From positions 1 to 40,055 of the forward strand of contig JAUIKF010000066.1 in NCBI GenBank assembly GCA_030430575.1: DNA of 40,055 nucleotides. The letters are read 5' to 3'. Both the position numbers and the translations under genes were made by a program. Source of the stretch: Bacteroidia bacterium. GTDB taxonomy: Bacteria > Bacteroidota > Bacteroidia > J057. Below the pieces are notes generated by a model. That model made no database searches, had not been told where the DNA came from, and saw nothing but the letters and a program-made list of their open reading frames with translations. This document shows, one piece after another, positions 1,573-18,078 of this stretch. Position 1 is the first letter of the stretch. Each line of letters opens with the position of its first letter.

Positions 1573-1658
1573 CTTGGACATCTAACAGATTGATTCAACT
1601 CTGTTAGATGCCGATGGCCTCAAAGACGTACCAGATTTTCTCCAATCTGGTACGTCTT
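1567..1658. repeat. Family A paired hairpins, copy 1
   Basis: Two palindromes stand side by side. The first has 11-bp arms at 1579-1589 and 1600-1610 (CATCTAACAGA and its complement). The second has 15-bp arms at 1623-1637 and 1644-1658 with loop TTCTCC. The core AACAGATT/AATCTGTT type and the 36-nt design (15+6+15) recur at 15.1-15.2 kb and 35.8-36.0 kb. The first hairpin is a diverged member: the inner 22 bases align without gaps to the GAAGAA-loop copies, and the upstream CGTAGC block has the same spacing as in those copies. It begins immediately after the oxidoreductase stop and may act as a transcript 3' end, although no T-tract follows. Confidence 0.75.
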
Positions 1659-1735
1659 CAGCCGCCATCTAACGATCATCATTCTCGCATTTTTGCCCAG
1701 CGTTTTCATGTTCATCTTAAAGACTTGGGAGTTAT

Positions 1736-1838
1736 TATAAATGGAGAAATCTCACATAAAAATGGCGATTTCTCCATTTATACATTTTTATATTTGGAGA
1801 AATCTATTTATTCTTACCTAGATTTCTCCAAATATAAA
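1736..1838. promoter_or_regulatory. Two tandem perfect palindromes upstream of the ATPase gene
   Basis: The first palindrome has 16-bp perfect arms at 1736-1751 and 1767-1782 with a 15-nt loop. The second has 19-bp perfect arms at 1787-1805 and 1820-1838 with a 14-nt loop, ending 7 bases before the ATG at 1846. Both carry the same inner block GGAGAAATC and its complement, so there are four copies of this block in alternating orientation within 103 bases. It could be an operator array, an mRNA structure masking the start codon, or an element end. The position next to a single ATPase gene suggests a regulatory role, but this is inference. Confidence 0.65.
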
Positions 1839-1845
1839 CTAAAAA

Positions 1846-3288: not shown

Positions 3289-3314
3289 CGCCCTGAAATT
3301 AGGTTTTTGACCCT

Positions 3315-3462
3315 AACAACGAAGTTGTCATTTCGACCATCGGGAGAAATCCAACACTTTCTTTTGTTTTGGCTTGACATCATGGGTTCCACACGCTTTG
3401 CCTAAGCTGCTAGACGATATTGTTAGATTTCTCCCTGCGGTCGAAATGACAGCTACGCTGCT
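3315..3462. repeat. Family B inverted-repeat element, copy 1 (MITE-like)
   Basis: Terminal inverted repeats at about 3327-3352 and 3425-3450 begin GTCATTTCGACC and end GGGAGAAATC, matching each other at all but a few positions. The match extends weakly outwards (GAAGTT/AGCTACG). The centre is unrelated single-copy sequence. A second copy lies at 11760-11921. The element sits between convergent genes and has no coding capacity, so it resembles a non-autonomous mobile element or a bidirectional transcript end. This motif is, to my knowledge, common between genes in Bacteroidota. Confidence 0.75.
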
Positions 3463-3506
3463 ATAATTATAAATGTGAATTGTAGATATTCTCCTAAGTT
3501 TACTTT

Positions 3507-3854
3507 TCACCCAATAATCTCCCGCTTCACCTTCGCAGGCAATTTCCCAAATACCAAGTCATAAGACTGTTGAATCAGCTGCGTCCATTCCGCTTTCCCC
3601 ATCCGGCTAATATCGTCGATTTGCACCCATTTATACCGCGCCATATAAGGTGCGGGGATAAAGCCTTCCCGCTCACAGAGCGCTTCGAAGGCTTCAGGCA
3701 TCGCCTTGAAGGAGGCAGAATGTGGCACCTTGTCCGGTGAGGTAATGAGGTACATCTTGCTACCTACGTTGAAGCACAAATGGTCTTCCCATTTGATGTC
3801 TTCCGTGGTGCCTGGGAGTTGTTGGCAAATGGTTTGAAGGTCTTCTATGTGCAT
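3507..3854 (-). CDS. MmcQ/YjbR family protein
   Basis: The 115-residue product has the YjbR fold signature (PF04237): an N-terminal helix ending in a conserved LPGTTEDIKW block, a WEDHLCFNVGSKMY strand region, the KAMPEAFEAL helix, and the conserved APYMARYKWVQID segment near residues 67-80. Length is normal for the family (about 110-120). The fold is cyclophilin- or DNA-binding-like and the molecular function is undefined. It is a single gene, convergent with the ATPase gene, with the family B element between them. Confidence 0.88.
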   Translation of the reverse strand: MHIEDLQTICQQLPGTTEDIKWEDHLCFNVGSKMYLITSPDKVPHSASFKAMPEAFEALCEREGFIPAPYMARYKWVQIDDISRMGKAEWTQLIQQSYDLVFGKLPAKVKREIIG

Positions 3855-3927
3855 GGAAATGATTAATTGAATTGATTGATTATTAATTGGGGTTCTTCGA
3901 GTCCTTTAGTGGAAGACAAAGAATAAG

Positions 3928-3956
3928 CCACGGATTACACGGATTTTCACGGATTC
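3928..3956. repeat. Short ACGGATT tandem motif in intergenic DNA
   Basis: The 147-bp gap between two minus-strand genes holds three spaced copies of ACGGATT (positions 3930-3955). I recall this as a recurring intergenic motif in Bacteroidota genomes, though I cannot verify that here. Nothing else was recognised in the gap apart from A/T-rich direct repeats (TTGATT) at 3862-3885. Confidence 0.35.
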
Positions 3957-4001
3957 TTTTCTTGCACTTGAGTTTCAATTTGAATTTGCACTTTTCTTCT
4001 T

Positions 4002-6254
4002 CTAATGAGCCATTTTCACCCGATACATCCTTTCCCCCGCCACAAATACCAGTACATAATTGCCTGAAGGTAGGTTAGCAGGAATATCGAGGCGGATGTT
4101 GGATGTTAAAAAAGGCCCTTCCCATGAAATCACCGTACGCCCCAAGGCATCCATCAAACGAATGTCCGATACAGTTGTCAGATCGGCATAAGCATCCAGA
4201 TGGATGATCTGCTCAAAAGGATTGGGATACACCTCAAAAACGCCTTCCACCGCGCTTCCCTTTTCCCAGTCCTCCTCCCCTATTCCCAAAGGAATTTCCC
4301 ATTCATAGGCCCCAATGTCTGGGGCAGAACCAACTGGACGGCTAACGCCTCGCTGATCTGTGACGAGAGATGACATGCCTGCGTCGATGGCTGGGCTGAG
4401 TGGCAGGAGGGCCACCGTATTTGTAGGGCCGCCGTAGGCAGCGTAGGGGCCAATTCCCGCGGTCTGAGGCGCACCTGCATTCCCAAGCAAATCACCCGTA
4501 GTTGCTACCATTTCTCCCCCCGTAGAATCACTCACTAAATTGTACCCAAGGGAAATAATGGCCCCACTGGTGCCCAACGAGAGTTCCTCCTCGCTCGAAC
4601 CTGTATTCCCTGTAAATAGGCAATTGGACAAGCGAGCCGTATCACTTGGCACACGCAGGCCGCCCCCTAGGCTCCCCGATTGGTTATCGACCAGGGTACA
4701 ATGGGTGAGTTGAATAGTTGCAATGCTGCTAACGCCTCCCCCACGATTGCCTGCCAGGTTTTCGACGAGGGTGGCATTGGTGAGGTGTACTTGTCCATCT
4801 GACAAACGCATGCCACCGCCATTGCCTACGGCCGTGTTCTGATAAAAGCTAGAAGCATTGACTACCGTACTAGGTCCTAAGGTATGTATCCCTCCTCCGT
4901 CATCATTGGCAGTATTTCTGTCAAATGTGGTGTTGTACACCTCAAGGGTCGCGGTATCGCTACAAGCTATGCCTCCCCCGTCGTCTCCCGACTCGTTGTC
5001 ATACAAGCGGCAATCCTCCACTGTGAGGACTCCTTCATTCATAATCGCTCCCCCGTCACGTCGGGAATTTGTCTTCCCTGCCATCAGGTGCAATTTTTTG
5101 AGGTAGATTCGCTGTAAAGGGGCCATCCCAAAAGCGCGGCTATTGTTGTTCGCATGGATAACTGCGGGCGTACTACCTCCTTCGATCACAAGGTCGTGAC
5201 ATAGGCAAAGTTCCCTGTCTTGAGAGAGCTGTAAGGTATCTCCAGCCAGCAGGCCGTCAAGTCGCACCGTATCGCCCGCTCGTGAGCGGTCAATGGCATC
5301 TCTCAGGCTGCCTGCACCTCCATCTGTCAGAATCGTCACCCCTGCAGCCCGCGGCGGTGGAGCGGTATAAAACGTATCGATAAATCGATCAATAGCGCAT
5401 GACAAGCTGCGCGCAAAGCGCTCGCGGTGAGCACGAGAATCGCGAACCCCATCATAATTGCACTCGATCTGAAGGCCGCTGATGCGGCCAGAGTCGCGGG
5501 ACGCGTGGCGTCTGGTATTATAGCCGCCTATGAAATAGGGTTCACCTACCATGGGAGCGGTATCGCTAGGGGAAGGAACAGCAGGATAGCCATATTCCTC
5601 CAATAATCCTCCCATACTGCTAGGGCCTCTGAGCAAATCAGAAAACGACACCTTGGAGGCCAAAGAGTCCGCCAACTCATGCAAGGAAGATTCATCAGCC
5701 ATATTGTCCAAGGCGGCGTCAGAGAGCCTGAGTTCTATGCTAGTCAGCAGATACCCCAGTTCCAATCGCTGGATGCTGTGTCCATGGGCATGCAGATCTA
5801 TGTAAAATCCGCGCGGATAGTGGGCCTCAACAGTGTCTCGCGCAGTTTGGATAAAGGCGTGGAATTCATGCCAGGCTTGCTCTGCTTCGGGATTGCCTTG
5901 GGCAGCTTCAACGATCTCTCGATTAGGATCGAGCTTTTTCCGACCCAGCTGGGAGATGATGATATGGGCCCGCCTGCCAAACTGCTGATATATAGCAGAA
6001 TCTAACTCCTGCGCAATCTCCAGAGTATAGAGGTCACGCCCTGTAACACAATTGGCGCAGGTGCGGTCGGGGATGCTTGCTGGCTCTAGGTAGCCTCCGT
6101 GAGGGGCGGAGATGATAATGGGCAGATCGCCCGCTCGGTATTCGACGTAGTTGTTTGTGCCCCAATAGACTTGACCTGGGGTGTAGGTCTGGGCGAGGGT
6201 GGATACTGTCCAAAAAGAAAATAGGAGGAGTAAGGAAATGGGGAATCGTTTCAT
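4002..6254 (-). CDS. Secreted N-formylglutamate amidohydrolase-like enzyme fused to beta-helix domain and T9SS sorting tail
   Basis: The start at 6254 gives a clean signal peptide (MKRF, hydrophobic core, cleavage near VSTLAQ). The frame also extends upstream to 6332, but that would bury the signal. Residues about 35-300 resemble N-formylglutamate amidohydrolase (PF05013): SAPHGG at 49-54, GRDLYT at 72-77, an N-R-E at 111-113, DLHAHGH at 153-159, and the IECN plus RERFA ending at 263-281. Residues about 305-655 form a parallel beta-helix of the choice-of-anchor-Q type, with repeated GGG(I/M)-N/D turns (opening motif GAGSLRDAI). The last 75 residues are a T9SS type A sorting domain beginning YPNP and ending in a K-M-A-H strand. 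The protein is probably exported by T9SS and kept on the surface. The substrate could be a peptide or an N-acylated compound rather than formylglutamate. It is a single gene, divergent from the next. Confidence 0.85.
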   Translation of the reverse strand: MKRFPISLLLLFSFWTVSTLAQTYTPGQVYWGTNNYVEYRAGDLPIIISAPHGGYLEPASIPDRTCANCVTGRDLYTLEIAQELDSAIYQQFGRRAHIIISQLGRKKLDPNREIVEAAQGNPEAEQAWHEFHAFIQTARDTVEAHYPRGFYIDLHAHGHSIQRLELGYLLTSIELRLSDAALDNMADESSLHELADSLASKVSFSDLLRGPSSMGGLLEEYGYPAVPSPSDTAPMVGEPYFIGGYNTRRHASRDSGRISGLQIECNYDGVRDSRAHRERFARSLSCAIDRFIDTFYTAPPPRAAGVTILTDGGAGSLRDAIDRSRAGDTVRLDGLLAGDTLQLSQDRELCLCHDLVIEGGSTPAVIHANNNSRAFGMAPLQRIYLKKLHLMAGKTNSRRDGGAIMNEGVLTVEDCRLYDNESGDDGGGIACSDTATLEVYNTTFDRNTANDDGGGIHTLGPSTVVNASSFYQNTAVGNGGGMRLSDGQVHLTNATLVENLAGNRGGGVSSIATIQLTHCTLVDNQSGSLGGGLRVPSDTARLSNCLFTGNTGSSEEELSLGTSGAIISLGYNLVSDSTGGEMVATTGDLLGNAGAPQTAGIGPYAAYGGPTNTVALLPLSPAIDAGMSSLVTDQRGVSRPVGSAPDIGAYEWEIPLGIGEEDWEKGSAVEGVFEVYPNPFEQIIHLDAYADLTTVSDIRLMDALGRTVISWEGPFLTSNIRLDIPANLPSGNYVLVFVAGERMYRVKMAH

Positions 6255-6411
6255 AATCCTAAGGTAAACAATATCTCGCAGGGCTAAACTTAGCTGGCTA
6301 GAAACAATTGTATTTTTAGCCATTTTTGACAAGTTTTAGGAAACGGATGATTTTGCCCCATTCATTCTTCAGTCTTTTAGATAGACTTTATTACCCTGAA
6401 ATCGGAATCCC

Positions 6412-7455
6412 ATGCAAACAACCATTCACATAACCCAAGGGCAAAATATCATCAAGCTGCTATTTGATGATTTTGCGAGCTGTCTGGTAGTGAAAGAAGC
6501 TTTGTCGGTCAATTGGCCTGATTGTGAGGGAAGTGTGGGAGAGTATTACGCGATTTCTGATTATCCGAGTGAAGATAGACACAGGCTGACAAACGCATTA
6601 AATGATGAACTGAGTCAAGGTTCAGAAGCGCAAATAATTACATCGCTTCGTCCTTTTTTAACCCTTTTTTCCAATGGAGAATACAGAATTGGCTTCCTAA
6701 CGCTACGCCTAGGAAAATCCTGGTTTCATAAACAGACTGATGTAATCTATCCTGATGACACCCCAAAAGATGAAAAATTTTCTGGCTGGTTTTTTCCCAC
6801 TGATCATGGCACATCAAATTATTTTTATACCATCCCTACTCAAGCACTTATCCCCCAAAGGATCGAATATTATATTGCCCTAATCAAACAGGGCAGCAGG
6901 CCTAAAATTCTGGTGTATGATGTTCAAAATCTAGATTCTGGTGAAGTCAGCGCCTCTTTTATTCTGGATGGGCATCATAAACTAGAAGCCTATCTTTCTT
7001 TAAAGATGGAAGTTCCAGCCGTTTTCATCCATCAAAAAGTAACTGGTCAAAATGCTACTGGCGAACTATTAAAGTTAGCCCATCCCATGTTGAAGGATCA
7101 CGAGTTCAGGCATCTTTTTGTGCATAATGACGAAAATACCTCATCCATTGACTTTGTTGCTGATGACTTGCTAACAGGATTGTTAGACGAGCTGCTCATT
7201 TCGGGAAAAGGGCTATCTGTGGGAATTGTTGAACTATTTATCCAAAAAGCCAATTCCTCAAACGAGCGTGACAAGGCTTGGCTAAATGATCGTTTAGAAA
7301 AACTCGCCAAAAATGAATTCATTGGTAAAGGGCTGCACTTGAGCTATAAAGGATTTGATGACAAAGGCAATCATTTATATTGGTTCTCTATGGAAATAAA
7401 AAGTAGGAAAGGGTTAAATCGTTGGATAAAAAACCTTAGGAAAGAATTAGTATGA
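6412..7455 (+). CDS. Uncharacterised protein with ParB-like DGHHK motif
   Basis: I do not recognise a family for the whole 347-residue product. It has no signal peptide or membrane segment. Residues 183-205 (FILDGHHKLEA, then VPAVFI) match the core of the ParB/sulfiredoxin-like nuclease fold, where D/N-G-H-H/N-R is the nucleotide-handling motif. K190 replaces the usual arginine. Regions on both sides are unassigned; the C-terminal third is rich in Lys and Glu. The gene is clearly A/T-richer than its neighbours, which suggests acquisition by transfer. Its stop overlaps the ATG of a truncated gene by 4 bases (ATGA). Confidence 0.75.
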   Translation: MQTTIHITQGQNIIKLLFDDFASCLVVKEALSVNWPDCEGSVGEYYAISDYPSEDRHRLTNALNDELSQGSEAQIITSLRPFLTLFSNGEYRIGFLTLRLGKSWFHKQTDVIYPDDTPKDEKFSGWFFPTDHGTSNYFYTIPTQALIPQRIEYYIALIKQGSRPKILVYDVQNLDSGEVSASFILDGHHKLEAYLSLKMEVPAVFIHQKVTGQNATGELLKLAHPMLKDHEFRHLFVHNDENTSSIDFVADDLLTGLLDELLISGKGLSVGIVELFIQKANSSNERDKAWLNDRLEKLAKNEFIGKGLHLSYKGFDDKGNHLYWFSMEIKSRKGLNRWIKNLRKELV

Positions 7456-7637
7456 AAAGACTTCTAGCCTTATGTATCCTCGCCCTCACCCTCCACTCCG
7501 CCTTCGGCGCAGTCCCCTACACCGTCGGCGACACTCTCTACATCTGGGCCAAGTCTGGCCTCAACATCCGCTCCGCCCCCAGCATCAAAGGCCAGAAACT
7601 TGAGAGATTTGTCATTGATAGCTATTTGCTGAAGTAG
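7452..7637 (+). pseudogene. 5' fragment of a secreted SH3-domain protein
   Basis: Residues 1-20 are a signal peptide (MKRL, hydrophobic core, FGA). They are followed by YTVGDTLYIWAKSGLNIRSAPS, the hallmark start of a bacterial SH3 domain (GLNIRSAP). The reading frame then turns into unrelated A/T-rich sequence after about residue 48 and stops at residue 61, far short of a complete SH3 domain. G/C-rich host-like codon use ends at the same point, near 7600. I read this as a gene cut by a deletion or insertion. It begins inside the stop of the preceding gene, so that gene was probably joined on by the same kind of rearrangement. Confidence 0.6.
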
Positions 7638-7675
7638 GCAACCCTTTTTGATTGATTTGCTTCTTATCCTTGAGT

Positions 7676-8614
7676 ATGCTCAAATCAATCTTCTTGAACC
7701 CTCATCAGCAGCGTATCCGCGCTTTTTGGCGGCTGATCATCTTTTTCCTGATCATCGCCGTCATCGCCAATCCGCTTGTGCTTTTATTGGATGCGACCGA
7801 CAATCCCTTATTGGAGAAATCATTCGAAAATCTGCTCGTAGCGATTGCCTTTTTTGTGGCGATTTGGATAAATGCCAAATACATTGACCGCCGCCCATGG
7901 AAGGACTTTGGCCTTCAGGTTTCCGCCACTTGGTGGCGAGATCTGGGGATAGGCTTTGCCATTGGTGGAGTGATCATGTCGCTCTTCTTCTTGGTCGCTT
8001 ATGCTATGGGATGGATAGCCATTCGGGGCGTTATGTCTACGGAAATCGCAGCGCCATTTGCGCTGGTGTTTCTAGGGCAAGTCTGTCGATACGCCGCAGG
8101 CAGTTTTTTCGAAGAAGTAATGTCGCGAAGCTATCTCTTGCGGATCATCGCAGAGGGACTTGCGGGTGCCAAAGTGACACGAAAACAAGCCCTGATGATC
8201 AGTTGGCTCCTTACTTCTCTCCTATTTGGCGCCTTGCACCTAGTGAATCCCAACGCCACGATATGGGGGGCGCTCAATGTCAGCCTCCTCGGCATGCTCT
8301 TTGGCCTGAGCATGGTGTACACAGGAAGACTTGCTTTGTCTATCGGCCTTCACATGGCCTGGAATATCTTCCAGAACAATATCTTTGGGTTACCTAATAG
8401 CGGAAAACCTGCCGTTGCGGCTTGGTTGATTACAGAAAACACAGGCCCTGCCATGTGGACGGGAGGCGAATTTGGGCCTGAGGGCGGATTGCTAGCGCTT
8501 GGGGCGATTATTTTGGGGATGCTGCTTGTCTGGGGATGGTTGAGGTATTTGTATAAAAAACCTACCTTAGTACTTGAGCTTTCCGATCCCCCTGAGGACA
8601 GCGGCAACATGTAA
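7676..8614 (+). CDS. CPBP (CaaX protease/bacteriocin-processing) family intramembrane metalloprotease
   Basis: The start at ATG 7676 gives 312 residues. The product has about eight membrane segments and the CPBP/ABI motifs (PF02517): EE at 146-147 followed by R (FFEEVMSR), the second motif with H188 (FGALH), and the third with H226 and N230 (GLHMAWN). All catalytic-type residues are present, so an active glutamate-type intramembrane protease is plausible. In bacteria the family works in protein maturation, bacteriocin self-immunity or signalling, and the target here is unknown. The gene stands between two broken secreted-protein genes and has its own short leader. A second, diverged CPBP gene lies at 19.7 kb. 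Confidence 0.88.
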   Translation: MLKSIFLNPHQQRIRAFWRLIIFFLIIAVIANPLVLLLDATDNPLLEKSFENLLVAIAFFVAIWINAKYIDRRPWKDFGLQVSATWWRDLGIGFAIGGVIMSLFFLVAYAMGWIAIRGVMSTEIAAPFALVFLGQVCRYAAGSFFEEVMSRSYLLRIIAEGLAGAKVTRKQALMISWLLTSLLFGALHLVNPNATIWGALNVSLLGMLFGLSMVYTGRLALSIGLHMAWNIFQNNIFGLPNSGKPAVAAWLITENTGPAMWTGGEFGPEGGLLALGAIILGMLLVWGWLRYLYKKPTLVLELSDPPEDSGNM

Positions 8615-8628
8615 GAACCACAGGCCAA

Positions 8629-9035
8629 ATGAAAATTATCCCCTCCGTTTTTCTCCTAGCCCTCACATTATGGTATGTTCCTAGCTTCTCCCAATGTCCC
8701 GTTGCCCTGGCAGACTCCAGTTTCGAAAACGGAACCCTCGCCTACGGCGGCACGCCCGATCTCATCGGCCGCTGGTACACAGATGACGGAGTGTTACTCG
8801 AATCCAGAAATGCCTACCACGGAGATACGATGGCTTGCAGCAATGGCGGCGGCGCCTATCAATTCTTTAAAGTGGATTCTCAATCGAAATCATCGATTTG
8901 CAAGGCCGAGTTATTTCGCACTGGGAAGCGGATATTGGGACAAATGAGTGGGGAGAAAATTTGCTAGCTGCGCCTTACATATTGCGCATCACATCGGCAG
9001 GGCAGGTGTGGGTGGTAAAGGTGATGAAATACTGA
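8629..9035 (+). pseudogene. Internally deleted, frameshifted secreted protein with T9SS tail remnant
   Basis: From 8629 a signal peptide (MKII, hydrophobic core, SFSQ) is followed by the start of an extracellular domain (CPVALADSSFENG). The frame stops at 8967 in unrelated residues. In a different frame from about 8871 to the TGA at 9033-9035, the sequence reads IEIIDLQGRVISHW and ends in SAGQVWVVKVMKY, which is the second half of a T9SS type A sorting domain. So the head and tail of one secreted protein have been joined near 8860-8885 with the middle deleted and the frame lost. A sequencing error cannot be ruled out, but the missing middle argues for true decay. Confidence 0.7.
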
Positions 9036-9037
9036 TT

Positions 9038-10090
9038 ATGAACGAACAAGCACAACGTTTCCAAGCCCACATCCGCTTACGCCCCGCCATGTATCTGGGA
9101 AAAGTTGAGTTGAAAGGGTTTGTGGAATTATTACTACAAATATTATCTGGAACCATATCCAAAACCCAAGCATCTCAAATCACCTTTAACTTTCATGATA
9201 AAAATAAGGGAAGATTAACCATTGGAAATATTAGGAAAGAAATGATCGATAATTGGGCTGTTTTTCATGATGAAGATCCTACCCTCCCATTGTTCATGGA
9301 GCCATTAGTCTTAAATTCCTTGAGCCAGTATTTTCACATGATTTTCTATGATAAAAAGAGGAAGGAAATATTGGCACAGCGATTTGAAAAAGGAGAATTA
9401 GCAGAAGGAAAAATTGAAGATAAACCCTTAGCCTGTCATTCAATAGTCATTGACTTTCAGTTAGATGAGGAAATATGGGGGGATAATTTTGCATGGGATG
9501 AAAATTATATCACCCATAGATTCCGTGAATTTGCCTACCTACATAAAGAAGCCAGATTCACCCTCAACTACCTACATGCCCACGAACCTTGTCATATAAC
9601 CTATCATTTCAACAATGGCTTAAAAGATAGACTTGATATCGAGAAATTTAATGGCCTGGGAGGGGCCTATTTCGAAACAGCTTTTGATAAACAAATGAAT
9701 GGCTTTTCCCTTGAAATGGCATTCGCCTTTAGAGAATACACGGTTGACAAATCATTCCTTGAATCCTATGTTAACGACCATTACACTCATGAAAATGGAA
9801 CCCATGTAGATGGGCTATTAAAAGGCTTGACCTACGGGGTCATGAAATATTTCCAAAAGCATCAACTCACCGAGACTTACAAAATCTCTGAAAAAGGTAT
9901 CCGAGAATCGCTCATTGCTATCCTACATATTCGCATGACAGCCCCTAATTTTAGTGGGTGCGTGAGAAATAAATTGGCCAATCCAGAAATCATACAGCCA
10001 ATTGCAGATTATGTAGCAGGATTGCTTTTTGAGAAGATGGAGGCAGATGAAGTTGCTACCGAAAAGTTGATCAGGAAGTTTGAAATGTAA
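9038..10090 (+). CDS. Stand-alone GyrB-like protein without ATP-site motifs (pseudo-GHKL plus transducer)
   Basis: The ATG at 9038 gives a 350-residue protein that aligns by eye along the 43-kDa N-terminal half of DNA gyrase B. RLRPAMYLG matches the RKRPGMYIG start. LVLNSLSQYF matches SVVNALSQKL. RFREFAYL matches RLRELSFL. THENGTHVDGLL matches the GGTH transducer block. GIRESLIAIL, followed by FSGCVRNKL, matches the REGLIAV and QTK-loop regions. The ATP residues are gone: no E-x-x-D-N at the first helix, no DDGRGIP, no GGLHGVG lid, and the QTK lysine is replaced. Toprim and C-terminal domains are absent. It is A/T-rich and only 2 bases downstream of a decayed gene. It is probably non-catalytic; a role as gyrase modulator or immunity-type factor is speculation. 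Confidence 0.72.
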   Translation: MNEQAQRFQAHIRLRPAMYLGKVELKGFVELLLQILSGTISKTQASQITFNFHDKNKGRLTIGNIRKEMIDNWAVFHDEDPTLPLFMEPLVLNSLSQYFHMIFYDKKRKEILAQRFEKGELAEGKIEDKPLACHSIVIDFQLDEEIWGDNFAWDENYITHRFREFAYLHKEARFTLNYLHAHEPCHITYHFNNGLKDRLDIEKFNGLGGAYFETAFDKQMNGFSLEMAFAFREYTVDKSFLESYVNDHYTHENGTHVDGLLKGLTYGVMKYFQKHQLTETYKISEKGIRESLIAILHIRMTAPNFSGCVRNKLANPEIIQPIADYVAGLLFEKMEADEVATEKLIRKFEM

Positions 10091-10108
10091 TACTAATAAA
10101 TCTAAATC

Positions 10109-10603
10109 ATGAAATTACTCCTTTTAGCCATAAGTTTTTCAACTGCATTAGGTTGTCTAGTACAAACTGAAATTGCCAAAAAAGCTGATGAAGACCATCA
10201 GAGTTTTAACCTAACTTATCTGTATGCTGGTTTAGGATCTGGAATGGGAACTATACAACCTGTTTTTCGCGTAAAGGGGCCCCAATTCGTTTATACCCTC
10301 GAACAGAATAGTTTTTATGGCAAAAAAACGGTTAAACCTGATACGATACACACAGGAAAATTTTCTCATCAATCCATCAAAATGATCCTTGATATTATCA
10401 AGCCGATAGAAGACACATTGATTTATAAATTAAACCCTAATGTCATGAGCGGAGGAATACACGAAATTGGCATAACGAACGATTCAAAAAAACTTACTTT
10501 TAGGCTCCATAATGCACCTGATTCTACTGCAAAAAAGATTGTCGATATATTGAATGTCTATATCCCCGATGGAGAAAGAAAATTATGGCTTTTTCCCTTT
10601 TAA
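10109..10603 (+). CDS. Small exported protein, unknown
   Basis: This 164-residue product has a hydrophobic N-terminal signal (MKLLLLAISFSTALG) followed by cysteine at residue 16. It may be a lipoprotein, although the lipobox is not ideal. The remainder contains alternating strands (FRVKG, FVYTLEQN, KLTFRLHN) and no family I recognise. It starts 18 bases after the pseudo-GyrB stop in the same orientation and shares its A/T-rich codon use, so the two are probably co-transcribed and co-acquired. It ends 6 bases before the convergent end-healing enzyme gene, leaving no room for a separate terminator. Confidence 0.6.
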   Translation: MKLLLLAISFSTALGCLVQTEIAKKADEDHQSFNLTYLYAGLGSGMGTIQPVFRVKGPQFVYTLEQNSFYGKKTVKPDTIHTGKFSHQSIKMILDIIKPIEDTLIYKLNPNVMSGGIHEIGITNDSKKLTFRLHNAPDSTAKKIVDILNVYIPDGERKLWLFPF

Positions 10604-10609
10604 AATCTA

Positions 10610-11734
10610 TCAATCTTTAATCTCATACCTTACCTCATGCGCCTCCCATGCCTCCGGCAGGTCCATGCGTGAAATAAAATTTCGGATCACCTTTTCACTC
10701 ACCACCGCCTCGCGCTGGCGGTTTTGGGCGAAGACCGTGGCGTACGGCGGTTCCAGATAGACGATGCGCACACGCGCCTTATAAGTCATCGCCAGGTCGA
10801 GGAGCTGTCGCCTGCGGCTCCGTATGATATTGGTGGCGTTCCACACAAAGTCCGTCTGACTGCGCAGGTACTCCTTGGCGCGCTCTTTGGCGAGTTGCAG
10901 GACACGGCCCTGGTTGTCGCGTGGTTTGACGCCTAGCTCTTTGCGAATGGCGTCGAGAGAGATCACAGGGAGGTCAGGACAGTTTTGCTGAATCCAATGG
11001 TCTTTGCCCGCGCCTGGCACCCCCACCATCATCGTGACGTTCAGCAGGCTATCGTCAAACGGCTCGTAGCTGGGATGCGCATCGTCTTTGTAGAAATAAT
11101 GAAATCGAGCCAAATCAGAGGGAAAAGCAAAGGGTTGCTGGTAGCAATTGCGTTCTTGGCAATATTCACGGAAGTAATCGATCCGATCCAATAAGCCTTG
11201 CTGGTCTTCACAGATCCGCCCCCGCACATCTGCCTCCGCCAGCAGGGCCAAATGGTCCATTCGCACATGCTGGCTAGCGCGCAGCACCATTTTCTCTCCA
11301 TCCCTTTTGTCCCAAAGTACCAGCGGCAGTCCATGAAATCTCACCAACTTGGCAATCCGCTCACGCTGGGCAAAGGAAGTGAAGGCAGCCATGGCTTCCC
11401 ACATATACTGCCGCGCCATGCGTTCGCCTTTCACCGAGTGATTGCGGGAAGTGACACGTCCGTCGGGCTGCACCTCGGTACAAGCAGGCTTCGCCATGTC
11501 ATGCATCAGTGCCGCCCAGAAGAGTTCCTCTCTGGCTTCAGAAGCCAGTTCCCGCCACGCAGGAAGCTCAGTCAACGCCTCCAGTACCATACGCGTATGA
11601 ATCCACACATCGCCTTCGGCGTGGTATATCGGGTCTTGCGGGACGCCTTTTAGCGTCTGCACCCAATCGTAGGCTGCATTGATTTCATCCCAGTTGAGGG
11701 AAAATGAGGGGGAAAGCGGGACGAGAGGTAGCAT
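10610..11734 (-). CDS. HD-Pnk: HD phosphoesterase fused to polynucleotide 5'-kinase
   Basis: The 374-residue product has an N-terminal HD domain (H46, the H78-D79 pair in LMHDMAKP, and a later D near 169) and a C-terminal P-loop kinase domain (GVPGAGKD at 238-245, then SLDAIRKE with D261 and R264). This order matches the characterised Runella slithyformis HD-Pnk, whose HD domain removes 2',3'-cyclic or 3' phosphates and whose kinase phosphorylates 5'-OH ends, together healing broken RNA or DNA for ligation. No ligase gene is nearby, so the joining partner must be elsewhere. Length is close to the family's. It is convergent with the gene before it, and the start is followed upstream by a family B element. 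Confidence 0.82.
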   Translation of the reverse strand: MLPLVPLSPSFSLNWDEINAAYDWVQTLKGVPQDPIYHAEGDVWIHTRMVLEALTELPAWRELASEAREELFWAALMHDMAKPACTEVQPDGRVTSRNHSVKGERMARQYMWEAMAAFTSFAQRERIAKLVRFHGLPLVLWDKRDGEKMVLRASQHVRMDHLALLAEADVRGRICEDQQGLLDRIDYFREYCQERNCYQQPFAFPSDLARFHYFYKDDAHPSYEPFDDSLLNVTMMVGVPGAGKDHWIQQNCPDLPVISLDAIRKELGVKPRDNQGRVLQLAKERAKEYLRSQTDFVWNATNIIRSRRRQLLDLAMTYKARVRIVYLEPPYATVFAQNRQREAVVSEKVIRNFISRMDLPEAWEAHEVRYEIKD

Positions 11735-11759
11735 ATACCCTCAAAAATAGTTTTTTTTT

Positions 11760-11921
11760 ACAGCAAAGCTGTCATTTCGACCAAAGGGAGAAATCTAACT
11801 ATCCGGTCTAATAGTCCATTCGAAGCATGTTGACCAAGTGTAGATAACCAGCATAAAAGGGAGTTTTAGATTTCTCCTCCCTTCGCAAAGCCTCCAGTCG
11901 TCGAAATGACAGGCATGCTGT
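11760..11921. repeat. Family B inverted-repeat element, copy 2 (MITE-like)
   Basis: The left end has ACAGC...GCTGTCATTTCGACC then GGGAGAAATCT (11760-11796). The right end is the complement (11868-11921) with about 17 extra bases inserted between AGATTTCTCC and the terminal GTCGAAATGAC. The centre differs from copy 1 at 3315-3462. It fills the gap upstream of the HD-Pnk start and downstream of the M56 gene. Confidence 0.75.
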
Positions 11922-11989
11922 AGGAGCAAGAATATGACTCCTTGACAAGATGGATAGCAAATTAACCATTTACCCTTAACAATTAACCA

Positions 11990-14620
11990 TTATCTCTCCC
12001 TCAGCTTCTCCCGATACTTCTTCACCTTCTCAGGCGACACCCGATCCAGGATAAATTCTTGATGTTTATCAATGTCCAATCCCGCCTTTTCATAGGACTT
12101 CAAAAAATCTGCGCTGATATAGCTATGGACAAATTTCTTATACTTTTCCAACGAATATCCCGCATCCAAATACCCTTTCAAGAATTCAGGATTCATATGA
12201 CTGTGGATATACGACTTGTGTTTTTCAAAGTCTAATCCTAGCGCCTTATACTTGCTCAACAGCTCAGGACTGACATGGCTATGAATGAAGTTCTTATGTT
12301 TTTCGAAATCAAAGCCAGCAGCCTTATATTTCTTCAGTAATTCAGGACTGACATGACTGTGGATGAAGTTTTTAGTTTCTTCAAAATCAAAACCGGCAGC
12401 CTTATATTTCTTCAATAATTCGGGACTGACATGACTGTGAATGAAGTTTTTGGTTTCCTCGAAATCAAAGCCTGCGGCCTTGTACTTGCTCAGCAGCTCA
12501 GGACTGACATGACTGTGAATGAAATTCTTGTGCTGTTCAAAATCGAAGCCAGCAGCCTTATACTTACTCAGCAGTTCAGGACTGACATGACTGTGAATGA
12601 AGTTTTTGGTTTCCTCAAAATCAAAACCGGCAGCCTTGTACTTCTTCAGTAACTCCGGACTCACATGGCTGTGAATGAAATTTTTATGCTCCTCGAAATC
12701 AAGGCCTGCGGCTTGATATCCTTTCAAAATATCTGGATTCACATGGCTATGGATGAAATTCTTATTTGCTTCCAAATCAAAGCCTGCGGCTTTGTATTTG
12801 CTCAGCAATTCGGGGTTGACATGGCTGTGGATGAAGTTCTTATGCTCTTCCAAATCAAAGCCTGCGGCTTTATATTTCTTCAGCAATTCAGGATTCACAT
12901 GGCTGTGAATGAAGTTCTTATGTTTCTCAAAGTCTAACCCCGCAGCTTTATATTTACTCAGCAACTTGGGGCTCACATGGCTTCGCACAAAATTTAGATG
13001 GTCTTCAACCGCAAAGCCTTCGGCTAAATAATCTTTTACCAAATCGGCTTTCACGCCCTCAGGAAGCAAGATTCTTAACGTCTGAGGCGGCAAGTCCAGG
13101 GCAGAGAGTGCGACCATATTTTGCACATATGCCTCTTGGTCATCTACAAAAAAGAGCCTGAACATCAGCTCTTCGGAGATTTCCTTCACGCCTTTGCGCG
13201 TCAACTGCTGGCGATAGGTGGCACTTTCCAAAAACTCAAAAGTCCCTTCCCCTTTATTCCCTACAAATGCGCCCGACATCACTAATTCCCCTGCTTGTTT
13301 TTTCAAGGAAAAAGTAGATTCACGGGTAAAATTTCGGGGACTAAATTCGTCCAGTGCATAACAGCGGTGGCTGATCCAATTCCAGTCTTTCTCTGACAGG
13401 GAGCGGATCACTCGAAGACACATCTCGCCTTCTTTCTGAATGCCTTCCCACGTGCCTGAGATACCGTCTGCAGCCAACAATTGGGGCGGCATAGCATCTG
13501 TCAAAGGGGATTCTGGCATATTTTCTTGAGGAATAAGATCAACATCTTGCGCAAGTTCTTCAGGCAGGGTTATCTCTGTTTGCGCCATCAGTATGGGGCT
13601 AGGTTCAATATCAGAGACGGGAAAGGCTGTCAGAGCTGGGACGATAGCCTTTGCGTTGAATAGGGGAATAGAAAGGGCAAGTAGGGTAATTAGGAAGAAA
13701 TATTTCCATCCAGCAAATAGGGAGGATTTTTTAGTCTGCATCATGAGAATTCTTTTTTTGAGCAATGATTGGTTGTAATTAGCTACAAGCGAATAAGCGT
13801 ACTTCGGCGCAGCGACCTGTAGGAGGCTCATTTGGTAAGCCGTCAGGTCGGTGCCACGCTGGACCATGAGGTCATCGGTCAGGTACTCGAGATTTTGCCG
13901 CAGGGCCTTGCGATAAGCCCAGGCAAAGGGATTGAACCACAGCACGATCAGCAGCAGCTCCGCCAGCAAAATGTCCAAGCTATGCCATTGGTCGGCATGG
14001 ATCTTTTCGTGGGACAGAATTTGGCGGAAAGTTGACAAATCAAGCGGAGCAGAATTGATGAAGATATAGCGAAAAAAAGAATAGGAAGCCTTTTCGTCAG
14101 CAGGTTCCAGCAAAATATACTTCCCCTCACGCGTCCGTGGGAGCAAGCGTATCTGCCGAAACAGAGAAGCCATCTGGCGTAGCAAGCGCATCGCAAAGAA
14201 GGCCACGCCGAGCAAGTACAATGCAAGCAGTGCCTGCGGGGTATAGTCTTTGGCCACTTGCCAAAAAGAGATAGCAGGCGTAGCCTCAGTAGCTGTCCTA
14301 TCGGCAGCGTTGAGGGAAGTCACCGGCGGTTCGGAGGTCATATAGACTTCCTCCTCAGTAAATGACTGAATATCAGGCGTATAAGCAAACCCCACATCCA
14401 ACACAGGCGCAGCCTTTTCTTCAACCTGTGGAGCCTCCAAAAGCGCAGAAACCGAATACTCGGCCGGCACCAAAAACGTGGGCAGCACAAAGGCCAAGCC
14501 CATTGCCCCCAACAACACCCATCGGTTCCATCTATAATGGGTTTCCTTTTCCAATACCCCTTTATAAAAGACCACCACCAAGGTGATCAGCACAGCTACA
14601 TGAAGGATATATGGCATCAT
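11990..14620 (-). CDS. BlaR1/MecR1-like M56 membrane metalloprotease with C-terminal 26-residue repeats
   Basis: The 876-residue protein begins with the BlaR1/M56 membrane module: four hydrophobic segments in the first ~330 residues and the zinc motif HEKIH at 204-208. Instead of a penicillin-binding sensor domain, the extracytoplasmic part has a linker, a unit of about 130 residues (starting GTWEGIQKEGEMCLRV), and thirteen tandem 26-residue repeats. In BlaR1 systems, sensing activates the cytoplasmic protease, which relieves repression by BlaI. The gene starts inside the blaI stop (ATGA overlap), so the two are translationally coupled. The signal is unknown; the repeat region is the likely ligand- or partner-binding part. 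Confidence 0.85.
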   Translation of the reverse strand: MMPYILHVAVLITLVVVFYKGVLEKETHYRWNRWVLLGAMGLAFVLPTFLVPAEYSVSALLEAPQVEEKAAPVLDVGFAYTPDIQSFTEEEVYMTSEPPVTSLNAADRTATEATPAISFWQVAKDYTPQALLALYLLGVAFFAMRLLRQMASLFRQIRLLPRTREGKYILLEPADEKASYSFFRYIFINSAPLDLSTFRQILSHEKIHADQWHSLDILLAELLLIVLWFNPFAWAYRKALRQNLEYLTDDLMVQRGTDLTAYQMSLLQVAAPKYAYSLVANYNQSLLKKRILMMQTKKSSLFAGWKYFFLITLLALSIPLFNAKAIVPALTAFPVSDIEPSPILMAQTEITLPEELAQDVDLIPQENMPESPLTDAMPPQLLAADGISGTWEGIQKEGEMCLRVIRSLSEKDWNWISHRCYALDEFSPRNFTRESTFSLKKQAGELVMSGAFVGNKGEGTFEFLESATYRQQLTRKGVKEISEELMFRLFFVDDQEAYVQNMVALSALDLPPQTLRILLPEGVKADLVKDYLAEGFAVEDHLNFVRSHVSPKLLSKYKAAGLDFEKHKNFIHSHVNPELLKKYKAAGFDLEEHKNFIHSHVNPELLSKYKAAGFDLEANKNFIHSHVNPDILKGYQAAGLDFEEHKNFIHSHVSPELLKKYKAAGFDFEETKNFIHSHVSPELLSKYKAAGFDFEQHKNFIHSHVSPELLSKYKAAGFDFEETKNFIHSHVSPELLKKYKAAGFDFEETKNFIHSHVSPELLKKYKAAGFDFEKHKNFIHSHVSPELLSKYKALGLDFEKHKSYIHSHMNPEFLKGYLDAGYSLEKYKKFVHSYISADFLKSYEKAGLDIDKHQEFILDRVSPEKVKKYREKLRER
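11993..12991 (-). repeat. Thirteen in-frame 78-bp repeats in the M56 gene
   Basis: The protein repeat is 26 residues: F-I-H-S-H-V-[SN]-P-E-L-L-[SK]-K-Y-K-A-A-G-F-D, then [FL]-E-x-x-K-N. Twelve full units plus one of 21 residues fill 999 bases exactly. Central units are nearly identical, while the first and the last three are more diverged, as expected if new copies arise by unequal exchange in the middle. The repeat is predicted helical with a conserved HSH and a Pro-Glu-Leu turn. There is no spacer between units. Confidence 0.95.
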
Positions 14621-14979
14621 GACTTATTTTTTTTGATCAACTCAATGATTTCTTTCAACTCTGCTTCGTCGATATTCTCCTCCTCCGCAAAAAAGGCCAC
14701 CAGGTTCTTGGGCGAATTATTGAAATACTGCTTCACAAAGTCGCCTAAGGCCTGTTTCTGGTACTTCTTTTTGGAAATCAAAGGATAATATCGGTGGGCA
14801 TTTCCAAAAGTCTCGTGGGCTACAAAGCCCTTTTTCTGCAAGATCTTAATGATCGTCGCCACCGTGTTATAGTGCAAGTCATCCGCCGACAACTCCTCCG
14901 TGATCTCCTTGATAAAGGCTTTTTTCAAGCGCCAAAGCGCCTGCATGATTTGCTCTTCTCTTTTTGCTAGTTTCTGCAT
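14617..14979 (-). CDS. BlaI/MecI/CopY-type transcriptional repressor
   Basis: With the ATG at 14979 the product is 120 residues, normal for BlaI. The N-terminal winged helix (REEQIMQALWRLKKAF, then YNTVATIIKILQKKGFV, then a beta-wing with HRYYP) is followed by a helical dimer region. In this family the repressor is inactivated by proteolysis triggered by its M56 partner, which is the next gene. The frame continues to a TTG at 15000, but the ATG is preferred for length and alignment. Autoregulation through the repeats at 15005-15060 is likely. Confidence 0.9.
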   Translation of the reverse strand: MQKLAKREEQIMQALWRLKKAFIKEITEELSADDLHYNTVATIIKILQKKGFVAHETFGNAHRYYPLISKKKYQKQALGDFVKQYFNNSPKNLVAFFAEEENIDEAELKEIIELIKKNKS

Positions 14980-15004
14980 CTTTTTGATTTGTAAACGCAA
15001 GGTA

Positions 15005-15060
15005 CTACTAATTTATTCGGAGATCAACTAATTTTTTCGGATTTCTACTAATTTATTGGT
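15005..15060. promoter_or_regulatory. Three 20-bp-spaced direct repeats, probable BlaI-type operator
   Basis: TACTAATTTATTCGG (15006-15020), AACTAATTTTTTCGG (15026-15040) and TACTAATTTATTGGT (15046-15060) repeat with an exact 20-base period, about two helical turns. They lie 27-81 bases upstream of the repressor ATG. This spacing would put three dimers on the same face of the DNA. The assignment as the repressor's binding site is inference from position. Confidence 0.6.
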
Positions 15061-15083
15061 AGAAAAGCCCAAATGACTCCCCC

Positions 15084-15230
15084 AATACCTAACAGATTTT
15101 CCTCAATCTGTTAGGTATTCAAGCCCACAAAAACGATTAGCAGAGCTATTTTCTCCCTGAATTAGATGTGCTGATTTACCACGCACGTAGCACAGAGGCG
15201 TAACAGATTGAAGAAAATCTGTTACGCCTC
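15084..15230. repeat. Family A paired hairpins, copy 2
   Basis: Hairpin one has perfect 15-bp arms at 15084-15098 and 15105-15119 with loop TTCCTC. Hairpin two has perfect 15-bp arms at 15195-15209 and 15216-15230 with loop GAAGAA. Both have the AACAGATT inner arm but different outer seven bases (AATACCT and GAGGCGT), each matched by its partner arm. The two are in opposite orientation, and CGTAGC precedes the second at the same distance as in the other pairs. They separate the carB 3' end from the blaI promoter. Confidence 0.8.
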
Positions 15231-15264
15231 ATCAAACGCTAAACCCAAAACTCAAAACCTTCCC

Positions 15265-18078
15265 CTACCTCGCCAAATACATATTCCTTTCATTATACGC
15301 CTTGACAAAAAACGGGTCTTGCAGGTCTTTGATAAAGTAGATCATTTCGCCCGTAGACTTCATCTCTGGGCCTAGTTCCTTATTGACATCTGGGAATTTG
15401 TCGAAGGAGAAGACAGGCACTTTGATGGCGTAACCTTGGAGTTTGGGTTTGAAGGTAAAGTCCTTGAGCTTGTGGGTTCCAAGCATCACTTTGGTGGCGT
15501 AATTCACATAGGGGATGTGGTGGGCCTTGGCGATAAATGGCACCGTTCGCGAAGCGCGTGGGTTGGCTTCGATGACATAAACTTCTTCATCTTTGATCGC
15601 AAATTGGATGTTGATCAATCCCTTGATATTCATCGCTAGCGCGAGTTTGCGCGTGTAGGCTTCCATTTTACCTACGACCTCATCACTCAAATCGAAGGTC
15701 GGCAATACCGCCGTGGAGTCGCCAGAGTGGATTCCCGCAGGCTCGATATGCTCCATCATCCCGATGATTTGCACATCTTCGCCATCACAGATGGCGTCTG
15801 CCTCTGTCTCGATCCCTTGATCGAGGAAGTGGTCGATCAATACTTTATTACCTGGAACGAGGTTCAGGATTTTGATGACGTGCTTGGTGAGTTCGTCATC
15901 GTTGATGACGATACGCATGTTCTGGCCACCAAGGACATAAGATGGGCGTACGAGAACGGGATAGCCTACTTCTTTGGCGATGGCAATGGCCTCTTCGGCA
16001 TTTTCGGCAATGCCAAAGCGCGGATAGGGTATGTCCAGGTCGCGCAGCAGATTGGAAAAGCGTCCGCGATCTTCGGCCATGTCCAGCATGTCATAAGACG
16101 TCCCCAAAATCGGGATTCCGTAGCGGTCCAGCTTTTCTGCCAGTTTGAGGGCCGTCTGCCCACCTAGCTGCACGATGACGCCTTCGGGCTTCTCATGCTC
16201 GATGATGTCGTAGATATGCTCCCAGAAGACAGGCTCGAAGTAGAGCTTGTCGGATATGTTAAAGTCAGTAGAGACCGTCTCGGGATTGCAATTAATCATG
16301 ACTGTCTCGAAGTCTTCCTCCTTGGCTGCCAGCACGCCGTGCACGCAGCAGTAGTCAAATTCGATCCCTTGACCGATCCGGTTCGGTCCTGCCCCAAAAA
16401 TGACCACCTTTTTGCGATCACTGGTGATGCTCTCGTTCTCTTCGTCGAAGGTTGAGTAGTAATAAGGCGTCTCTGCCTTAAACTCTGCTGCGCAGGTATC
16501 CACCAATTTGTATACTCGATTGATTTTCAGGGCTTTGCGTCGTTTATACACATCACTCTCCAAGCACCTCAAGAGGTGGGCGATCTGACGGTCGGCATAG
16601 CCGTTTTTCTTCGCTTCCAGCATCAAATCCTTGGGAATGTCCTTGATCGTACAGCGAGACATTTCTTTTTCGAGGGCCACGAGGTACTCGATTTCGCGGA
16701 GGTACCAAGGGTCTATTTTGGTGGCTTCGAAGATGGCACTCAGCGGTACACCAAGGTGCATGGCATCTTTGACATGGAAGATGCGGTCCCAAGAGGGATT
16801 GCGCAGGCTGTCCATAATTTTGCTGAGGTCGGTCAGCTCTTTGCCATCAGCGCCCATGCCATTGCGGCGTATCTCTAGCGACTGCGCAGCTTTTTGTAGC
16901 GCCTCATTGAAGGAACGGCCGATGCCCATCACCTCCCCTACGGCCTTCATCTGAAGGCCGAGTTGCTGATCCGAGCCATAGAATTTGTCAAAATTCCAGC
17001 GAGGGATTTTGACGATGACGTAGTCGAGGGTAGGCTCAAAGAAGGCGGAGGTGTTTTTAGTAATCTGGTTGGGGAGTTCATCCAGGTTATAGCCTACGGC
17101 CAGTTTAGCGGCGATTCGGGCGATGGGATAGCCTGTGGCTTTGGAAGCCAAAGCGGAGGAGCGCGATACGCGTGGATTGATCTCAATCACGATCATTCGC
17201 CCCGTTACGGGATCAATGGAGAACTGCACATTACAGCCTCCTGCAAACTCTCCCAACGCATCCATCACACGAAAAGCGGTATCTCGCATGAGTTGCATCT
17301 CGGTATCTGGCAAGGTCATGGCAGGCGCCACGGTGATGGAATCTCCTGTGTGAATGCCCGTCGGATCGAGGTTCTCGACCGAGCAGATGACAATTTTATT
17401 TCCAGCCCCATCTCGCATGACTTCCAACTCGTATTCTTTCCACCCAAAGATACTCTCTTCAATCAGCACCTGATGCACAGGGCTGGCGTTGAGGCCCCGT
17501 TTGAGCAGTTGATCATAGTCTTTCTCTTCCTGGACAAATGCGCCCCCTGTGCCGCCCAAGGTATAGGACGGGCGAATCACCAGCGGAAAACCAATCCGCT
17601 GGGCGATCTCTTTTCCTTTCAAATAGGAATTGGCGATTTGTGATTTTGGGACGTCGATGCCCATCTCTTCCATCAACGCGCGGAACAGTTCGCGGTCCTC
17701 TGCCTTGTCGATGGCATCGATATTGGCACCGATGATTTTTACCCCATATTTTTCCCAAATACCTGCTTTTTGGCACTCTACGGCCAGGTTGAGGGCTGTC
17801 TGACCTCCCATAGTAGGTAGGACAGCATCGATCTTCTGCTTTTCCAGTATATGGACAATAGAAGCTGGTTCCAAAGGCAGCAGGTAGATGTCATCCGCTG
17901 TGACGGGATCCGTCATGATGGTGGCGGGATTGGAGTTGATGAGGGCCACGCGGATGCCTTCTTCCTTCAACGCAAGCGATGCCTGCGAACCAGAATAGTC
18001 AAATTCACAGGCCTGGCCGATGATGATCGGTCCACTTCCAATAATCAGAACGGATTTGATGCTAGGATCTAAAGGCAT
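15265..18078 (-). CDS. carB: Carbamoyl-phosphate synthase large subunit, lacking the C-terminal allosteric domain
   Basis: The 937-residue protein has two homologous ATP-grasp halves. The first begins KSVLIIGSGPIIIGQACEFDYSG, broken here as KSVLIIGSGP plus the ACEFDYSG motif, and carries the Q-V/R-P-S-Y-x-L-G-G-T-G-G motif. The second begins near residue 550 (VVIFGAGPNRIGQGIEFDYC) with RPSYVLGGQNM. It makes carbamoyl phosphate from bicarbonate and ammonia supplied by CarA for pyrimidine and arginine synthesis. It ends soon after GPEMKSTGE, where the E. coli enzyme continues into a ~130-residue MGS-like allosteric domain, so that regulatory domain is missing. carA is not in the window. It is a single gene. 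Confidence 0.95.
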   Translation of the reverse strand: MPLDPSIKSVLIIGSGPIIIGQACEFDYSGSQASLALKEEGIRVALINSNPATIMTDPVTADDIYLLPLEPASIVHILEKQKIDAVLPTMGGQTALNLAVECQKAGIWEKYGVKIIGANIDAIDKAEDRELFRALMEEMGIDVPKSQIANSYLKGKEIAQRIGFPLVIRPSYTLGGTGGAFVQEEKDYDQLLKRGLNASPVHQVLIEESIFGWKEYELEVMRDGAGNKIVICSVENLDPTGIHTGDSITVAPAMTLPDTEMQLMRDTAFRVMDALGEFAGGCNVQFSIDPVTGRMIVIEINPRVSRSSALASKATGYPIARIAAKLAVGYNLDELPNQITKNTSAFFEPTLDYVIVKIPRWNFDKFYGSDQQLGLQMKAVGEVMGIGRSFNEALQKAAQSLEIRRNGMGADGKELTDLSKIMDSLRNPSWDRIFHVKDAMHLGVPLSAIFEATKIDPWYLREIEYLVALEKEMSRCTIKDIPKDLMLEAKKNGYADRQIAHLLRCLESDVYKRRKALKINRVYKLVDTCAAEFKAETPYYYSTFDEENESITSDRKKVVIFGAGPNRIGQGIEFDYCCVHGVLAAKEEDFETVMINCNPETVSTDFNISDKLYFEPVFWEHIYDIIEHEKPEGVIVQLGGQTALKLAEKLDRYGIPILGTSYDMLDMAEDRGRFSNLLRDLDIPYPRFGIAENAEEAIAIAKEVGYPVLVRPSYVLGGQNMRIVINDDELTKHVIKILNLVPGNKVLIDHFLDQGIETEADAICDGEDVQIIGMMEHIEPAGIHSGDSTAVLPTFDLSDEVVGKMEAYTRKLALAMNIKGLINIQFAIKDEEVYVIEANPRASRTVPFIAKAHHIPYVNYATKVMLGTHKLKDFTFKPKLQGYAIKVPVFSFDKFPDVNKELGPEMKSTGEMIYFIKDLQDPFFVKAYNERNMYLAR

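Follow-up and report, generated by a model that had tools for sequence, protein, structure and literature searches.

Why would a bacterium keep a free-standing N-terminal piece of DNA gyrase subunit B (GyrB) that has lost its ATP-site motifs? The question is raised by an open reading frame (ORF) at positions 9038 to 10090, on the forward strand, of the 40,055-nucleotide stretch of Bacteroidia DNA analyzed here (the entire contig JAUIKF010000066.1; the whole stretch is called the window below). The ORF opens with an ATG at 9038, its stop codon ends at 10090, and it encodes a product of 350 amino acids (aa). Starting instead from a GTG at 8948, in the same frame, would lengthen the product by 30 residues, but the match to a relative from Aureisphaera galaxeae NBRC 110018 begins inside the product defined by the start at 9038.

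A stand-alone GyrB-like protein

The sole Pfam domain of the window protein is DNA_gyraseB (PF00204; E 6.5e-20, with a score of 71.8 bits where 27 is the cut-off), the transducer domain, which matches residues 219-346 when the initial Met is not counted (positions 9695 to 10081, forward strand, as are all features of this gene). The NCBIfam GyrB and ParE models scored far under their cut-offs, and the PDB sequence matches at E ≤ 1 were GyrB and ParE chains (best E 2.1e-15). Pfam found no Toprim domain, and the ORF stops at the end of the transducer. Its own genome (8.16 Mb) contains three PF00204 matches at E ≤ 0.001, namely a 651-aa GyrB and a 630-aa ParE, both from intact genes, and the window protein, which matches this GyrB at E 3e-17. 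The preliminary description of this DNA, made from the letters alone, had proposed a stand-alone, 350-residue GyrB-like protein without Toprim; both points held, the first through the PF00204 match and the Aureisphaera relative (354 aa, 53% identity over the full length), and the second through the ORF end and Pfam.

Loss of the ATP-site motifs

We compared the window protein with the GyrB of its own genome. A retained N-terminal GyrB block, RLRPAMYLG, lies at residues 13-21 (positions 9074 to 9100), and its R15, P16, and G21 are invariant in all five members of the family described below. The N-box EVVDNSIDEA of GyrB is replaced by QILSGTISKT, DDGRGIP falls opposite a gap, TRLGAGGKF and SGGLHGVG stand opposite unrelated, partly deleted letters, and QTK has become CVR (positions 9959 to 9967). 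The shortened segment, at approximately residues 58-92 (positions 9209 to 9313), is where GyrB carries DxGRGIP, the AGGKF loop, and the GLHGVG lid. In a pattern count over 29 rows, with an AGGKF pattern that also takes AGGKV, TGGKY, and TGAKY, none of the five family members had any of N-box, D.GRG, xG[GA]K, GLHGVG-like, or QTK, whereas all 17 GyrB and ParE rows had every one. Among 49 GyrB loci on viral contigs, the N-box was missing from seven, DxGRG from two, and QTK from three (one an incomplete locus), never all together.

The alignment and the count thus bear out the loss of E-x-x-D-N, DDGRG, and GGLHGVG claimed in the preliminary description. Its claim that the QTK lysine is gone stands in part: the motif is lost, but the charge persists, with K or R at that place in all five members (CVR, CVK, SQR, STK, and SFK; K in the Aureisphaera relative, which otherwise has the same losses as the window protein). 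This basic residue and the retention of the E and N of the N-box in one member (locus L080) are what could be said for a rebuilt site that still binds ATP or another nucleotide; with the DxGRG, AGGKF, GLHGVG, and QTK patterns absent from all five, we hold such binding to be very improbable. From the motif loss, we predict that the window protein does not hydrolyze ATP.

The GHKL/transducer fold anticipated in the preliminary description was returned by AlphaFold2 from a GyrB-rich alignment of 27 rows (two family and 25 GyrB rows; mean pLDDT 89, pTM 0.85), with low confidence near residues 71-90 (<50 at 77-84), close to the missing lid. The best 50 Foldseek matches of the model were all GyrB or ParE, the best at E 7.1e-27 to a GyrB 43K structure, with TMq of 0.74-0.83, and the best 30 VIA matches had Z scores of 28.3-30.6 over 309-333 residues. 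We infer a GHKL plus transducer fold that, as modeled, would be unable to bind ATP in the GyrB manner.

The first VIA match (Z 30.6, rmsd 2.6, 322 residues aligned), tied with E. coli GyrB rows, was PDB 3cwv, a Myxococcus xanthus protein of 369 aa titled "DNA gyrase, B subunit, truncated," which resembles the window protein in length and fold. The link in sequence is weak: a five-member profile matched 3cwv at E 2.8e-10, it lay outside the 55 matches of a two-member profile, and it ranked below many active GyrB and ParE chains in the profile searches. The comparison with 3cwv is by fold and profile, and a search of open-license papers for the name of this entry found none that contains it. In a viral structure library, the named matches listed were mostly topoisomerases, followed by HSP90-like, RIIA, and HATPase proteins, and many matches were unnamed. 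Among the weaker matches was a Nile crocodilepox virus protein of 392 aa (Q070G5 in BFVD; E 3.4e-9, TMq 0.51, 11% identity), whose name, "GyrB-like ATPase domain protein," would make it a further short GyrB-like protein.

A rare family, with purifying selection in one pair

The Aureisphaera protein was the one relative given by six exact peptide patterns in the contigs of 84,980 species. Over the 349 codons compared in this pair, 60% of third positions differ, against 40% of first and 27% of second positions; with a pS of 0.756, synonymous sites have reached saturation, against a dN of 0.44. Residues 241-290 (positions 9758 to 9907) are 88% identical, with dN 0.08 and pS 0.74, and residues 251-275 are 96% identical to the Aureisphaera protein, compared to 44% to the GyrB of the window's own genome. 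These codon comparisons indicate purifying selection in this pair, the only one open to such a test. The GyrBs of the two organisms are 66% identical; this value, the placing of Aureisphaera in the Flavobacteriaceae, a match to a type IX secretion system (T9SS) sorting tail that scored slightly under its cut-off, and a T9SS-like tail seen by eye all suggest a Bacteroidota host.

We surveyed 296 genomes from the class with PF00204 and found six with three matches, the others having one or two. Besides the window's own genome, three of the five other three-match genomes encode an intact short stand-alone protein: L077 (positions 1486-2541, minus strand; 351 aa, TTG start), L079 (913-1905; 330 aa), and L080 (925-1926; 333 aa). 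In genomes G1150 and G1181, the extra matches are fragments of gyrB that lie at a contig end or close to one. The short protein is thus present in at least four of the 296 genomes, under four family codes (f1, f11, f18, and f27), with per-genome counts read by eye; this is a lower bound, the genomes examined being those with three matches, and the Aureisphaera member was found by another route. L077, L079, and L080 (53-68 bits) and the Aureisphaera relative all exceed the PF00204 cut-off.

L079 and L080 are 32% identical across 318 residues (E 3e-52). The window protein matches L077 at E 1e-20 and L079 at E 2e-17, with only 16-23% identity to the three distant members. Because it matches its own GyrB about as well as it does L079, pairwise scores alone cannot separate the family from GyrB. 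In a tree, however, the five members group together with support of 100/99, subject to a long-branch warning, and all five have a hairpin two residues longer than that of GyrB and ParE (approximately positions 9734 to 9751 in the window), a feature found in none of the 14 GyrB and ParE rows of the same alignment. In a different alignment, the extra length at the hairpin also occurs in two phage-like GyrB rows, L036 and L037. Of the 52 GyrB loci from viral contigs, 25 went into alignment A4, 17 into the tree on the origin of the B subunit, and four into later trees and the motif count; those dropped included some near-copies and insert-bearing loci.

Searches at thresholds of E ≤ 1e-20 to 1e-30 found no further genome with a member, but such thresholds reach near relatives only, and L077, L079, and L080 are themselves too distant for them. 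A search of 22 genomes of the order at E ≤ 0.001 found no further full-length short protein, although some frames at incomplete contigs were short.

In common with the 43-kDa N-terminal part of GyrB and ParE, the family has the transducer, the predicted GHKL-transducer fold, the RxRPxMYxG block, and a similar end point; it differs in lacking the N-box, DxGRG, AGGKF, GLHGVG, QTK, Toprim, and the tail, as well as in the two extra hairpin residues. We are highly confident, from these sequence comparisons, that the five proteins form a rare, patchily spread family related to that part of the type IIA topoisomerase B subunit.

The loss of catalytic motifs, and a broken-looking gene immediately upstream at 8629-9035, could suggest a gyrB fragment decaying without function, which the preliminary description had foreseen if homologues with the same loss pattern were lacking. 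Four such homologues were found. Five intact ORFs in five genomes, a dN well under the saturated synonymous divergence in the tested pair, the common motif loss (the lid motif is absent from all five), and the single tree group refute decay for the family, and we regard it as scarcely credible for any of these genes. The phylogeny returned the one family group that had been looked for; no conserved neighbor was seen among the part of the neighbors that was scanned.

A parallel set on Streptomycetaceae plasmids

A tblastn match on a Streptomyces cavourensis plasmid led to stand-alone GyrB-like proteins of 383-396 aa, which are encoded on plasmids of Streptomyces and Kitasatospora and carry the annotation "DNA gyrase subunit B" or "ATP-binding protein" (L086, positions 2500-3663; L087, 4001-5176; L088, 4001-5164; L089, 3980-5152; L090, 3956-5146; L091, 4016-5167; and L092, 3956-5131). 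None of the seven records examined has the N-box, xG[GA]K, GLHGVG, or QTK, and two retain DNGRG. Like the family, these proteins are stand-alone and GyrB43-like, with degenerate ATP motifs and a similar C-terminal boundary; unlike it, they have an undeleted lid region, and their tree position differs, the set falling beside Streptomyces atratus GyrB (97/95) and apart from the five members. Forcing the five members and the Streptomyces set into one clade was not rejected at the 5% level (p-AU 0.07, with long branches). In the tree, two origins are favored: the plasmid set is probably independent of the five-member family, and GyrB N-terminal modules without ATP-site motifs probably arose more than once. 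The existence of a parallel stand-alone set suggests that a module of this kind has proved useful more than once. There is also a warning for annotation, since a record under either name, "DNA gyrase subunit B" or "ATP-binding protein," may be a paralogue without ATP-site motifs. On a Streptomyces atratus plasmid (L094, positions 1426-4194), we noted a gyrB gene for a 683-aa product that has the ATP motifs; the gene after it bears the annotation "DNA topoisomerase IV subunit B."

Possible functions

The role that we place first, tentatively and at somewhat under an even chance, is that of an ATP-independent mimic of the GyrB N-gate that works in trans, either on type II topoisomerases or on their attackers. 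Loss of the ATP-site motifs would leave a GHKL plus transducer module without GyrB-type ATP binding; this module could engage GyrB or ParE, or else some usual binding partner of that surface, and the engagement may alter the response of type II topoisomerases to a stress, for which a gyrase poison or a weapon of bacterial conflict is the likeliest candidate.

Base composition is relevant to the choice of a conditional role. The GC content of the GyrB-like gene is lower than that of gyrB in all five members (0.384 vs. 0.497 and 0.379 vs. 0.453 in two; 0.346 vs. 0.466, 0.335 vs. 0.384, and 0.348 vs. 0.495 in the three others, for which the gyrB figure is that of the whole gyrB locus). The GC content at third codon positions (GC3) of the window gene is 0.39, compared to 0.56 in its own gyrB, which suggests lateral arrival. 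Accessory carriage together with low GC, with the lateral transfer that this suggests, is more in keeping with protection under particular conditions than with housekeeping.

Proteins that act on this part of GyrB are known. QnrB1 and MfpA have folds unrelated to that of GyrB. These pentapeptide-repeat proteins are like the proposed mimic in being accessory proteins on the GyrB 43K/47K module and differ in not being GyrB paralogues: QnrB1 binds GyrB43 and stimulates its ATPase, according to excerpts of PMC7897471, and MfpA was crystallized with the GyrB 47K fragment (PDB 6zt5, entry title). Excerpts of PMC12136450 describe Cpe1, an interbacterial protease whose cleavage site in GyrB and ParE is the LHAGGKF loop. 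We counted these three proteins in favor of an N-gate mimic.

Several observations weigh against this mimic. The interaction with gyrase is postulated only. Of the 41 alignment columns alike in at least four of the five members, 23 are common to GyrB and ParE and are probably fold residues, while 15 differ; a kept interface is not apparent from these conserved columns. The part before RxRP is short in the family. In GyrB, the N-terminal arm swaps between protomers, and with the arm short, a GyrB-type dimer may not form. AlphaFold2 run on the two family rows alone gave a poor model (pLDDT 41), and since 25 of the 27 rows behind the good model are GyrB, that model leans on GyrB. As to the B subunit from which the family came, the tree joins it to three Bacteroidota-type GyrBs with support of only 54/91. 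Finally, no neighbor common to the five loci was seen among the part of the neighbors that was scanned.

Some of the same evidence would suit a fold re-used outside topoisomerases, as a scaffold or as a binder of another ligand. Very long stems in the trees, the low identity to the three distant members, the want of common neighbors among those scanned, and losses that strip away what makes GyrB a gyrase subunit all fit this explanation, and there is a precedent in Arabidopsis. In AtGYRB3, K337 is replaced by Q; the partially purified protein was unable to bind GyrA of E. coli, and complementation of gyrB by the gene failed, as reported in excerpts of PMC2845627. The same excerpts describe AtGYRB3 as a plant protein with a transducer, a SANT/Myb-like putative DNA-binding domain, and putative nuclear signals, in which it differs from the family. 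Searches of open-license PMC full text listed no description of a bacterial family of stand-alone GyrB proteins that lack an ATP site; AtGYRB3 seems to be the nearest idea described there, and gyrase-derived pseudoenzymes seem to be hardly described. The strong constraint on the GyrB-matching transducer segment at residues 251-275 speaks against re-use for an unrelated purpose, which we consider rather unlikely, if a serious competitor.

A third possibility is an immunity protein or decoy against an interbacterial toxin that attacks GyrB or ParE; it would hold the toxin in place of the true target and could not itself be damaged. Stand-alone immunity genes exist. Patchy, low-GC, fast-diverging genes would fit that class, and in genome G906, the GyrB-like gene lies inside a run of small, mostly Pfam-less genes. 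Such toxins exist too, Cpe1 being one, and its immunity protein acts by competing for the substrate site, according to excerpts of PMC12136450. Against this, the attacked loop and the lid that follows it are absent from all five members, which leaves little for a loop-directed toxin to hold; the missing AGGKF loop should confer resistance to a Cpe1-like attack and also make a poor bait. Cut-resistant GyrB and ParE variants gave no protection against Cpe1, as far as excerpts of PMC12136450 report. No clear toxin gene was seen among the neighbors scanned, which are a part of all, and PADLOC gave no match for seven window proteins at E ≤ 0.01. We judge an immunity or decoy role distinctly unlikely. 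The preliminary description had suggested binding to gyrase subunits, a decoy for gyrase poisons, or an immunity or defense component, and a decoy for toxins directed at the lid is weakened by the missing loop and lid. The absence of the loop and the failure of cut-resistant variants to protect set our ranking: the N-gate mimic first, the re-used fold second, and the decoy or immunity protein third.

If the window protein does act on type II topoisomerases, it would provide a natural, ATP-free way of tuning or shielding a major target of antibiotics and toxins, and a means of studying N-gate contacts apart from ATP hydrolysis. A wider proposal, which we think unlikely as it stands, is that bacteria have more than once made a free-standing, ATP-dead GyrB N-gate whose target in trans is the type II topoisomerases, which it would protect or tune like a rheostat when toxins, phages, or gyrase poisons strike. 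Such a class of gyrase-directed pseudoenzymes would take in the family, the Streptomycetaceae set, and perhaps 3cwv.

Genomic setting

In the window, the GyrB-like gene is preceded by a CAAX protease gene and the broken-looking gene and followed by a gene for a small exported protein and an HD+AAA_33 gene. The Aureisphaera locus has DUF4272 upstream and cytochrome c downstream, and the locus in genome G1177 has a cupin-like gene and a gene for a tetratricopeptide-repeat (TPR) protein. In genome G968, the contig ends after two genes, neither of which matches any family above the cut-off. In G906 (L084, positions 5314-16286, minus strand), co-directional small genes surround the GyrB-like gene; 11 of the 13 scanned have no Pfam match over the cut-off, and the eight of these 11 scanned with NCBIfam have none over the cut-off either, so that the run looks like an accessory gene array. 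An HNH-domain gene lies 8 kb off in L084, and an FG-GAP-repeat protein in L006 has a second, overlapping match, to PF12256 (28.7 vs. 24.8 bits); neither was judged to be a toxin.

The preliminary description had pointed to a small exported-looking protein 18 bases downstream and to an accessory region, and both are there. The next gene (positions 10109 to 10603, forward strand) starts 18 bases after the GyrB-like gene and encodes 164 aa with an N-terminus that is lipoprotein-like by eye (MKLLLLAISFSTALGC) and no Pfam match; the low GC of the stretch is common to the window gene, 6412-7455, and 10109-10603. By a crude signal-peptide rule that also takes in membrane proteins, the next gene looks exported in all four loci that have one (the fifth locus ends about 100 bases past the gene), as do 44 of the 106 picked ORFs of the five loci. 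These four genes differ in kind from one another; given this and the background of 44 in 106, we dropped the idea of an operon with an exported downstream gene, an association that is probably not meaningful.

A known defense gene was rejected for want of a PADLOC match. An origin from a phage or plasmid was also rejected, no close relative having been found in viral contigs, phage records, or plasmids; the identities listed were <30%, many plasmid matches are annotated gyrB or parE genes, and the phage matches listed carry no annotation. Around the gene, a search for mobile-element boundaries found weak short repeats only, with no tRNA and no Rfam match at the gathering score, and promoter-like sites were near the shuffle level (8 vs. 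5.6 ± 2.6). An empty-site blastn search with window positions 4000-14600 against four relatives gave three matches, in one genome, all outside the gene.

Two further features of the window were noted. The broken-looking gene at 8629-9035 has an exported N-terminus in one frame and, in another (8871-9035), what looks by eye like a T9SS-like sorting tail, which ends two bases before the GyrB-like start codon. A second low-GC patch (~0.38-0.43) at 6200-7500 encodes a 347-aa protein without a Pfam or NCBIfam match, together with a short exported-looking ORF at 7452-7637.
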